Source: Gammaproteobacteria bacterium RIFOXYD12_FULL_61_37 (GTDB lineage Bacteria; Pseudomonadota; Gammaproteobacteria; Chromatiales; Chromatiaceae). Taken from it: a stretch of 64,000 nucleotides of DNA. Of this stretch, positions 16,325-19,294 are shown in pieces. The DNA lies in contig MGZB01000016.1 in assembly GCA_001801995.1 (NCBI GenBank), forward strand, positions 1 through 64,000, in the 5' to 3' direction. Each line of letters begins with the position of its first letter. Position 1 is the first letter of the stretch. The translations under genes and the position numbers were made by a program. The notes beneath the pieces are model-generated. The model was not told the DNA's origin. It was given only the letters and a program-made list of their open reading frames with translations, and ran no database searches.

Positions 16325-17239
16325 ATGCGTTGGCGTAGCGGAAGAAGAAGTGACAATGTGGAAGATCAGCGCTCCGAAGGCGGCGGGGTTGACGGCGGTG
16401 GCGGGGGGAGCCCCCTGCTGCCGATACTCCTGCGTCTTGGCGGACGCAGAGGTGGAATCTGGACCTTCGTCGTCATTGCCGCCCTCATGTATTTCACCGG
16501 CGGCGACCTGGGAGGGCTTTTAAACGGCCTGACCGGGGTGCAGGTCGGGCCGGCCCCCTCCTCCCGTCAAGGCACGGTACAGGAGACTGCGACAGAGAAG
16601 GAGCTGGTGGAATTCGTCAAGGTGGTGCTTGCCGATACGGAAGACACCTGGAACAGCCAGTTCCGAAACATGGGAAGGCAATACCAGGAACCCCGGCTGG
16701 TGCTGTTCAGGGGCGCCGTCCGTTCCGCCTGCGGCAAGGCGGAGGCCGCGATGGGACCTTTTTACTGCCCTGGTGATCAGAAGGTCTATATCGACTTGAG
16801 CTTCTACGAGGACCTCAAGAAAAGGCACAACTCCCCCGGCGACTTCGCCCAGGCCTACGTCATCGCCCATGAAATCGGCCACCATGTGCAGAATATGCTG
16901 GGGATCATGGGGAAGGTGGAGCAGACCATGGACCGGGTAAGCAAGGTGGAAGGCAACCGGCTCTCGGTACGCCAGGAGTTGCAGGCGGATTGCTTCGCCG
17001 GCGTATGGGCTCACCATGCCAACAAGGCGCGGAACATCCTGGAGCAGGGCGATATAGATGAAGCCATCAACGCCGCCAGCGCCATCGGCGACGACCGCTT
17101 GCAGAAGCAGTCAACGGGCTATGTGGCCCCTGATTCCTTCACCCACGGCACCTCCGCCCAGAGGGTAAAGTGGTTCAGAATCGGCATCGAGAACGGCAGC
17201 TTGAATAGCTGCAATACCTTTGACGCAAAGAATCTCTGA
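16325..17239 (+). CDS. ypfJ: YpfJ-family neutral zinc metallopeptidase
   Basis: A 304-residue membrane-anchored protein with the zinc protease motif HEIGHHVQ at about residues 182-189. One transmembrane helix (GIWTFVVIAALMYFTGG) lies near residue 42-58, after a charged, glycine-rich N-terminal tail typical of YpfJ. Further family blocks are QELQADCFAGVWAH and a C-terminal THGTSAQRVKWF. The substrate of this family is unknown to me. It follows lspA by 27 bp and is closed by a strong terminator. Confidence 0.88.
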   Translation: MRWRSGRRSDNVEDQRSEGGGVDGGGGGSPLLPILLRLGGRRGGIWTFVVIAALMYFTGGDLGGLLNGLTGVQVGPAPSSRQGTVQETATEKELVEFVKVVLADTEDTWNSQFRNMGRQYQEPRLVLFRGAVRSACGKAEAAMGPFYCPGDQKVYIDLSFYEDLKKRHNSPGDFAQAYVIAHEIGHHVQNMLGIMGKVEQTMDRVSKVEGNRLSVRQELQADCFAGVWAHHANKARNILEQGDIDEAINAASAIGDDRLQKQSTGYVAPDSFTHGTSAQRVKWFRIGIENGSLNSCNTFDAKNL

Positions 17240-17359: not shown

Positions 17360-18211
17360 CTACTCCATCCGCTGACGAATCTTTTCCATGGCATTCTTCT
17401 CGATCTGGCGGATGCGTTCGGCTGATACCCCATATTCGTCTGCCAGCTCGTGGAGTGTCCGCTTGTCGTCGGTCAACCAGCGGGCCTGGAGTATGGCGTG
17501 GCTGCGCGGGTCCAAGCACTCCAGGGCGGAATGGAGCCTTGAGAGCCGATACTCCTCGGAATCCTGGCGTTCCAGCATGGCCAGGGGTTCCATGCGAGTG
17601 TCGCGCAGGTAAGCGGAAGGAGTCGTACCCAGGGCATCTTCATCGTCGCTGTCCGGGGTGTCGTAGGCGATGTCCTGGCCGGAGAGGCGGCTCTCCATCT
17701 CCATGACCTCGGCCGGCTTGACCCCCAGTTCTTTGGCAACCTCCGCCACCTCTTCCTGGTCGAACCAGCCCAGTCGCTTCTTGGCGCTACGCAGGTTGAA
17801 GAAAAGCTTGCGCTGGGCCTTGGTGGTCGCGACCTTGACGATGCGCCAGTTGCGCAGGATGAATTCGTGTATCTCGGCCCGTATCCAGTGTACGGCGAAG
17901 GAGACCAGCCGGACCCCCTGGTCCGGGTCAAAACGGCGTACCGCCTTCATCAGGCCGACGGTTCCCTCTTGGATAAGATCGTTCAGCGCCAGGCCATAGC
18001 CGGAGTAACCGCGTGCTATACGCACCACGAAGCGCAGATGAGAAAGAACCAAGGCACGCGCGGCAACAAGGTCGCCTTGATCGCGAAGGCGCAGTGCGAA
18101 ATCGCGCTCCTCCTCGGGGGACAGCATGGGCAACTGATAGGAGGCGCTGATGTAGGCGTCGATACTGCCGGTGGGCACCATGGCGGTAGAGAAGGAAAGT
18201 TCCCTAGTCAT
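17360..18211 (-). CDS. rpoH: Heat-shock sigma factor RpoH (sigma-32)
   Basis: Directs RNA polymerase to heat-shock promoters (chaperones, proteases). The 283-residue protein has sigma region 2 ([18 protein letters not shown]), the diagnostic RpoH box QRKLFFNLR at about residues 133-141, and a region 4.2 helix-turn-helix ending [14 protein letters not shown]. It stands downstream of ftsYEX on the same strand, the conserved gammaproteobacterial arrangement. Unusually, a CIRCE-like operator (18288-18314) overlaps its likely promoter, implying HrcA repression. Confidence 0.95.
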
Positions 18212-18284
18212 GTCGCTCTATACCTCACTAAATTACTCTATTATTAATGCTACACCCTGGATCGGGTTTAGGCAACTGAGGACA

Positions 18285-18314
18285 ATTCTAGCACTCGCCC
18301 AAAGAGAGTGCTAA
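18285..18314 (-). promoter_or_regulatory. Candidate sigma70 promoter of rpoH
   Basis: On the minus strand TTAGCA (18314-18309), an 18-bp spacer and TAGAAT (18290-18285) make a plausible promoter. Transcription would start near 18278, leaving a 65-70 nt leader before the ATG. The -35 element is the outer half of the CIRCE inverted repeat, so a repressor bound there should block polymerase. Confidence 0.5.
18288..18314. promoter_or_regulatory. CIRCE operator (HrcA binding site)
   Basis: The sequence CTAGCACTC, nine bases, GAGTGCTAA matches the CIRCE consensus TTAGCACTC-N9-GAGTGCTAA at 17 of 18 arm positions with exact spacing. CIRCE is the target of the heat-shock repressor HrcA. It lies upstream of rpoH, between rpoH and ftsX. 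Confidence 0.9.
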
Positions 18315-18352
18315 TGCTTTGATTGGGAAAGATAAAAAAAGTTCGCCAAAGA

Positions 18353-19294
18353 TCAGGCCGGTTCGATGCGTTTGAGATGGCGGCCCACCGCGATGGCCGC
18401 GCCCAGCAATCCCAGGATCGGACTGCCGACGAGAAAGCCAAGCAGTGTGGTTGAATCCAGTGCGGAAAAGGTGAAGCCGCTGTTGTAGAGGATCGTCAGT
18501 TGCAATAGCGGCTCCTGGATCAGAAAGGCCGATAGCAGGACCAGCAGCAATGCGAAAAGGCCGCCGAGGAGGCCGAACCAGAAGCCGCTGTAGAGAAAGG
18601 GGCGGCGAATGAAGGCGTTGGTGGCCCCGATGAGCTTGGTGATCTCGATCTCCTCGTGCCGGTTCTGGATCTCCAGGCGGATGGTGTTCCCGATCACCAG
18701 GAGCACCGCCATGCTCAACAGCCCGGCCAGGATCAGTACCCCCCTCTGGGCGATCCGGGTGATGGCGGCAAAGCGCTTGACCCATTCCAGGTCGATCTGC
18801 GCATGATCGACCAGCGCTTCCTTTTTCAGTTGCTCGACCAATTTCTCCACGGAGACGGGATTGCCGCCCTGCTCCTTCGGCTGGATCAGGACGACCGCCG
18901 GCAGGGGATTTTCCTGAAGCAGGCCAAGCACGTCGTCGAAACCGCTGAAGCGCCGGAACTCCGCCAGGGACTCATCCGCCGTGACGAACTTCACCTTGCT
19001 CACCTCGGCCATCTCGCCAATGCGCTCGGCCAGGCGGCGCCCGCCGCTCTCGGGCGCCTCTTTCTTGAGAAAGAGCGAGATGCTGCTGGAACCATCCCAG
19101 TTGTCGCTCAGAAGCTGGAGGTTGGAGAGGATCAGGTGCAACCCGGCGGGCATCGCCAGGGCGATGCCGATGACGGCGGTGGTCATGAGGCTGCCGGCGG
19201 GATTGCGACTGAGGCGCCCAAGGCTGGCCAGTGCGGTTTGCAGATGGTGGGCCAGCAGGATTCGGAGCGGGGTGAAATGCTTGAAGAGGCTCAT
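18353..19294 (-). CDS. ftsX: Cell division protein FtsX
   Basis: Membrane half of the FtsEX complex, which couples ATP binding to activation of cell-wall amidases at the septum. The 313-residue protein has an N-terminal cytoplasmic segment, four membrane helices (near 35-57, about 185-205, 240-260, 285-305) and a large periplasmic loop between the first two. Family blocks include GATNAFIRRPFLYSG. The start overlaps the ftsE stop by 4 bp (ATGA), indicating coupled translation. Confidence 0.93.
   Translation of the reverse strand: MSLFKHFTPLRILLAHHLQTALASLGRLSRNPAGSLMTTAVIGIALAMPAGLHLILSNLQLLSDNWDGSSSISLFLKKEAPESGGRRLAERIGEMAEVSKVKFVTADESLAEFRRFSGFDDVLGLLQENPLPAVVLIQPKEQGGNPVSVEKLVEQLKKEALVDHAQIDLEWVKRFAAITRIAQRGVLILAGLLSMAVLLVIGNTIRLEIQNRHEEIEITKLIGATNAFIRRPFLYSGFWFGLLGGLFALLLVLLSAFLIQEPLLQLTILYNSGFTFSALDSTTLLGFLVGSPILGLLGAAIAVGRHLKRIEPA

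Follow-up and report, generated by a model that had tools for sequence, protein, structure and literature searches.

We identified an operator of the repressor HrcA that is probably built into the promoter of rpoH, the gene of the heat-shock sigma factor sigma-32, in a gammaproteobacterium of the family Chromatiaceae, where the repressor would gate transcription by both sigma-70 and sigma-E. We assign this reading a probability of about 0.87. Accounts of heat-shock control usually present it as either repressor-based (HrcA/CIRCE) or sigma-based (sigma-32), the two standing side by side where both occur. If our reading is true, a conserved HrcA operator in the rpoH promoter, with bases common to the sigma-E promoter, puts both systems in one hierarchy and makes GroE capacity an input to sigma-32 synthesis. 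The sequence-only reading of the window (the whole stretch of 64,000 nucleotides analysed here) had placed HrcA, if it binds here, above sigma-32 in such a hierarchy, and the site, the presence of hrcA and the comparison with relatives support this order, with HrcA predicted to bind and repress.

The rpoH gene occupies positions 17360-18211 of the minus strand and matches the equivalog model NCBIfam TIGR02392 (rpoH_proteo) with 401 bits, the cut-off being 323. The gene order is ftsY-ftsE-ftsX-rpoH, and RpoH, FtsX, FtsE and FtsY all score above their NCBIfam equivalog cut-offs; ftsX, taken from the open reading frame list, lies at 18353-19294 on the minus strand (TIGR00439). Inside the 141-bp gap between ftsX and rpoH, a pattern scan of the window with the CIRCE consensus TTAGCACTC-N9-GAGTGCTAA found a palindrome at 18288-18314 on the minus strand, matching 17 of the 18 arm bases with exact N9 spacing. 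The plus strand reads CTAGCACTC-GCCCAAAGA-GAGTGCTAA and the rpoH-sense minus strand TTAGCACTC-TCTTTGGGC-GAGTGCTAG, giving an operator TTAGCACTC-N9-GAGTGCTAG with one mismatch in 18 that extends from -103 to -77 relative to the rpoH start codon, with 76 nt between the two. The near-perfect CIRCE claimed earlier at 18285-18314 was borne out, the palindrome proper being 18288-18314 and the longer interval also including the end of TAGAAT (18290-18285). Allowing at most three mismatches, we found this one match in the 64-kb window, where 0.01 were expected, and 1 of 100 shuffles had a match. An action of the site on another gene was considered and rejected: ftsX precedes the site on the same strand, and rpoH is the first gene after it. 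The rpoH leader by the start codon (18211-18255, with GTGTAGCATTAATA and TTAGTGAGGTATAGAGCGAC) is nearly identical in a sister genome, which exceeds the needs of a ribosome-binding site. A neutral zinc metallopeptidase of the YpfJ/KPN_02809 family (16325-17239) stands tail to tail with rpoH.

Judged by sequence and conservation, the CIRCE palindrome overlaps the predicted promoter of rpoH. A promoter scan of 18100-18500 returned a single sigma-70-like site, TTAGCA-18-TAGAAT with TG before the -10. This putative promoter (18285-18314, minus strand) has its -35 TTAGCA at 18314-18309, an 18-nt spacer and an extended -10 TGCTAGAAT (hexamer 18290-18285), scores 9/12 with the TG, and spans CIRCE, whose outer arms on the rpoH strand supply TTAGCA and TAGAAT. 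Shuffled sequences average 0.4 such sites; taken by itself the promoter is thus weak evidence, and the case for it rests on conservation. Transcription by sigma-70 would be expected to start approximately 7 nt after TAGAAT, beyond the inverted repeat. A candidate sigma-E promoter precedes the operator at 18318-18345 on the minus strand, with -35 CGAACTT (18345-18339, 6/7), a 16-nt spacer and -10 TCAAA (18322-18318), the consensus elements being GGAACTT and TCAAA as given in PMC4890791. Its start would be expected inside the left CIRCE arm. This element lies 15 bp further upstream than is usual in genomes carrying the operator and ends 3 nt before it, so that HrcA would block the start region and not the -10. 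A canonical rpoE is present in the genome (TIGR02939, 302 bits, cut-off 236). Downstream of the operator, a possible second promoter TTGCCT-N17-TAGCAT (18247-18275, minus strand), weak at 8/12 and read from the sequence below the scan threshold, has identical letters and spacing in the aligned sister genome; it could yield HrcA-independent rpoH mRNA.

A search for hrcA, whose absence the sequence-only reading had named as one of its refuters, found the gene on another contig (TIGR00331, 325 bits, cut-off 197), with both the C-terminal domain (PF01628, E 1.4e-66) and the HrcA DNA-binding domain (PF03444, 25.3 bits, cut-off 21). The 3.47-Mb genome holds two CIRCE sites with up to three mismatches, one before groES and one before rpoH, and a reversed control pattern gave none. 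The second site lies 63 bp before groES (L002), hence the canonical companion target of HrcA, groESL, is present. It is preceded by CTTGACT-N11-GCCCAT, which resembles a sigma-32 promoter when read against the consensus in PMC545781. The dnaK upstream region contains CTTGAAA-N13-ACCCAT, and no CIRCE with up to five mismatches was found at either hrcA or dnaK (L001, L281, L282). As only two sites with up to three mismatches were found, and none at dnaK, HrcA is predicted to act directly on groESL and rpoH in this genome, and on dnaK by way of sigma-32. The hrcA gene itself (G000:C17:3782-4441) adjoins a ferritin-like gene, according to the reading of open reading frames, and dnaK is on contig C2, unlike the usual hrcA-grpE-dnaK order.

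Conservation of the site was evident in the sister genome G209, whose RpoH is 88% identical. There the operator lies equally far upstream, again has the TAG end and is accompanied by TAGAAT, and its spacer differs; that the spacer has changed and the arms and sigma-70 hexamers have not is as expected of a working operator. A sigma-E-like element in the same place is weaker (CGAACTA-N17-TCAAA, 5/7 in the -35) and falls below the mechanical rule used for such elements. Further rpoH upstream regions came from three partly overlapping samples: named loci, the own family and other families of the class. The named sample consists of the best 80 of 574 loci, one with only 82 bp upstream. The own family, the only family returned by the order searches, is represented by 72 genomes, namely 30 best-scoring loci (the window's genome included), 40 picked for other genera and 2 obtained via the class search; four of its genomes had two RpoH matches, of which one was used each, a choice that bears on G199, counted as site-less. 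The class sample covers 95 genomes from 89 other families, made up of 27 best-scoring loci and 68 picked, one per further listed family. It was drawn from the best 150 or so matches of a class search of 276 genomes, 262 with a match, and thus leans to RpoH like that of our genome; it leaves out about 110 genomes with unlisted RpoH matches and about 50 listed ones from families already taken, and the alpha class lies outside the samples.

With the site defined as CIRCE with up to three mismatches within 350 bp of rpoH, it was found in 45 of these best 80 named loci, 43/72 genomes of the own family and 78/95 genomes of the class sample (72/89 families), and in 0/72 and 0/95 reversed sequences of the latter two. 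Named carriers include Ectothiorhodospira magna, Plasticicumulans lactativorans, Silanimonas, Pseudoxanthomonas taiwanensis and Thiohalomonas denitrificans, and named non-carriers include Thiocapsa, Thiohalocapsa, Allochromatium, Chromatium weissei, Halorhodospira abdelmalekii, Wenzhouxiangella, Legionella impletisoli, Stutzerimonas and Azomonas. When upstreams with 40 identical bases in common were joined and the 82-bp one was omitted, 218 distinct upstreams remained. The comparison with relatives, proposed earlier as a check, was positive: 149 of the 218 carry CIRCE, with 0, 1, 2 and 3 mismatches in 62, 60, 20 and 7 of them, while the best match has 6 to 9 mismatches in the other 69 and 4 or 5 in none. 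None of 872 shuffled sequences was better than 5 mismatches. The recurrence of the site in so many related bacteria suggests that one heat-shock system may control the other.

The anatomy of these promoters provided insights into how the operator is placed. We aligned 155 CIRCE-bearing rpoH promoters on the operator, position 0 being its first base in the rpoH sense. Besides the CIRCE letters, three blocks are conserved across the 155 sites, GGAACTT (-16 to -10), T-[AC]-A (9 to 11) and AAT (27 to 29), and these blocks can be read as two promoters, one for sigma-E and one for sigma-70. The sigma-E layout is GGAACTT, 16 nt and TCTNA, with the left CIRCE arm ending in the TC of the latter; 102/155 sites have AAC at -14 to -12 together with TC at 7-8, and 17 more have AAC one base further up (99/149 and 17/149 when one site per cluster is taken). 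By a mechanical rule, 98 of the 149 distinct upstreams with CIRCE have a sigma-E element, as do 38 of the 69 without it, the controls giving 4 to 8 of 218 in each of four shuffle sets and 2 in reversed sequences; in 81 of the 98, the left CIRCE arm provides the TC of the sigma-E -10. Hence rpoH commonly has a sigma-E promoter whether or not CIRCE is there, and the operator sits on it.

The sigma-70 layout is TT[AG]GCA at 0-5, 18 nt and a hexamer at 24-29, most commonly TAAAAT (54/155), the last base being T in 85%. The third arm base is changed from A to G, which makes a better -35 (TTGGCA), in 54 left arms versus 7 right arms of the 155 sites, or 51 versus 7 when one site per cluster is counted (149 sites, with kinship uncorrected). 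HrcA alone would predict equal variation in both arms, hence this bias speaks for the left arm as a -35. Meanwhile, 19 CIRCE sites at groES in the own family, assigned by a loose protein motif, are without the rpoH flanks: position 29 is A or G in 19/19, and their promoter-like letters lie upstream of the operator. A general flanking pattern of CIRCE was rejected on these grounds. The earlier proposal that the outer arm forms the -35, with TAGAAT at the other end, gains support from the conserved bases outside the palindrome and from the arm asymmetry, neither seen at the 19 groES sites. Substitutions of the inner G of GAGTGC (GACTGC, GATTGC) number 26 in the right arm versus 3 changes in the left (149 sites); the left-arm inner G may be held by the sigma-E -10.

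The distribution of the site was compared with that of hrcA in 80 of the 95 class genomes, comprising all 17 site-less and 63 of the 78 site-bearing ones. Site and gene were both present in 61 and both absent in 13, with the site alone in 2 and hrcA alone in 4 (Fisher p 7e-10, relatedness ignored). The two class genomes with a site and without an hrcA match are G290 and G274, the latter with a degenerate site (3 mismatches). On a quick RpoH tree we count 12 changes of the site and 11 of hrcA, with 2 independent pairs on supported branches and 12 on all branches; a sign test on the 2 is not significant, and the association is strong only when kinship is left uncorrected. Within the own family, 70/72 genomes have an hrcA match, a few of these being fragments; G017 and G038 (the latter 62% complete) have the site without a match. 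The 29 site-less genomes of the family all have an hrcA match and CIRCE elsewhere. Given these 29 genomes and the 69 of 218 upstreams without the site, the link between HrcA and rpoH is not obligatory. By genus, 24 have the site, 21 are without it and none is mixed, many genera being one genome. In some genera that keep hrcA, rpoH has left, or never joined, the predicted HrcA regulon, and such natural presence and absence within one family offers a ready comparison for the gain or loss of this wiring.

Taken together, these results make rpoH look like a node of sigma-70 and sigma-E under an HrcA gate. We infer binding, repression, start sites and the GroE loop from the sequence, and propose that in the unstressed cell HrcA, kept active by GroEL/ES, would sit on CIRCE, covering the sigma-70 -35 to -10 region and blocking the start region of the adjoining sigma-E promoter, whereby rpoH would be held down. 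Heat, or GroE being drawn off by unfolded protein, would free the operator, and rpoH would then be transcribed by sigma-70 and, under envelope stress, by sigma-E. The resulting sigma-32 would raise groESL and dnaK, and restored GroE would re-activate HrcA, closing a loop that is known for HrcA elsewhere. In Campylobacter, HrcA binding is lost on heating and helped by GroE, according to PMC8533110.

Other explanations of the site were weighed against this reading. HrcA may bind and yet matter little, with rpoH mRNA coming mostly from TTGCCT-N17-TAGCAT or from ftsYEX read-through and sigma-32 set by translation or stability as in Escherichia coli. The preservation of that weak promoter-like element downstream of CIRCE in the sister genome is consistent with this, as is the scan of 18100-18500, which found no terminator-like site, and E. 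coli rpoH is as a rule controlled after transcription. We nevertheless consider a minor role of HrcA unlikely, for it would hardly explain why 72 of the 89 sampled other families have preserved the operator together with the promoter under it. That the palindrome arose by chance has a negligible probability, with only 0.01 matches expected in the window, and is refuted by conservation in the sister genome, the class sample and the 218 distinct upstreams.

The inverted repeat could also act as RNA: transcripts with an upstream start would carry it as a hairpin in their 5′ leader, where it would affect rpoH mRNA stability or translation, and the expected sigma-E start (approximately 18311-18313) would place most of the repeat in the mRNA. 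The expected sigma-70 start, on the other hand, falls beyond the repeat, no Rfam family matched in 17900-18500, and across relatives it is the CIRCE letters that are kept, with most arm positions near-invariant (a figure inflated by selection for CIRCE likeness) and a variable spacer; we regard an RNA role as quite improbable. Use of the palindrome by a protein other than HrcA would account for the four genomes that have the site without a detected hrcA, but the sites keep to the 18 letters of CIRCE and its N9 spacing, the same motif forms the groES operator of this genome, and 13 of the 17 site-less class genomes are also without hrcA. Such a protein is very improbable in our judgement, and control by HrcA is the reading that we retain.

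HrcA/CIRCE controls the groESL and dnaK operons in Bacillus subtilis, Campylobacter, Agrobacterium and others. This control of chaperone operons is covered in part by PMC8533110 and PMC11764788. The arrangement described here has the same operator, the same repressor family and a site at the promoter, but its predicted target is a sigma-factor gene instead of a chaperone, and the flanks differ from those of the groES sites in the own family. The closest precedent is the prediction by Rodionov et al. 2004 of a perfect CIRCE upstream of rpoH of Geobacter sulfurreducens, at -51 (PMC545781). As in our genome, that site was inferred from sequence and occurs beside a groESL site, with hrcA-grpE-dnaK-dnaJ also bearing CIRCE there. 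Geobacter sulfurreducens is, however, a delta-proteobacterium, and the portion of PMC545781 at hand lists the rpoH site for one studied genome and describes no sigma-E/sigma-70 interlock. Here, unlike in Geobacter, groESL is the sole further HrcA target found, and the arrangement is seen repeatedly across the gamma class. The sequence-only reading is supported on the overlap of operator and promoter, but had missed both the sigma-E promoter at the site and the 2004 prediction.

The P3 promoter of E. coli rpoH is sigma-E-dependent. In Vibrio alginolyticus, sigma-E was located at rpoH by ChIP and EMSA, as reported in PMC4890791. In those bacteria as here, sigma-E would act on rpoH via elements of the GGAACTT/TCAAA type, whereas here an HrcA operator overlaps the predicted sigma-E -10 or start region. 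A profile search found no hrcA match in the E. coli control genome, in line with the earlier statement that E. coli rpoH is not under HrcA. The RpoH and HrcA systems also coexist in Agrobacterium tumefaciens, both acting on groE, but their roles there are independent by the title of a study cited in PMC11764788, while in our genome the predicted target of HrcA is rpoH itself. Our search of the accessible literature found no description of HrcA control of gamma-proteobacterial rpoH or of a sigma-E link, and Permina and Gelfand 2003 (on gamma-proteobacteria, by its title) may report such sites. CIRCE at rpoH having been predicted in Geobacter, what the present comparison would add is the recurrence in the gamma class and the apparent sigma-E interlock.

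Based on these findings, we tentatively postulate, at somewhat less than even odds, that HrcA control of rpoH is an old design of the whole gamma-proteobacterial class, lost in some lineages, among them the enteric ones used as textbook models. In that scheme rpoH would be a three-input node, its sigma-70 and sigma-E promoters interlocked with one HrcA operator; a GroE-sensing repressor would gate both the cytoplasmic and the envelope routes to sigma-32, and the translational control of E. coli would be derived.

The number of CIRCE sites also varies among these bacteria. Tandem CIRCE-like sites (up to three mismatches), 31-34 bp or about three helical turns apart, occur in 11 of the 149 distinct carriers (L049, L136, L137, L143, L144, L145, L156, L165, L166, L179 and L186), and a twelfth, L239, has a spacing of 42 bp. 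This suggests paired HrcA binding in some lineages. Meanwhile, G199 has seven CIRCE sites with up to two mismatches, versus 1-5 in nearly all of the other 209 genomes searched, and perhaps has a larger HrcA regulon.
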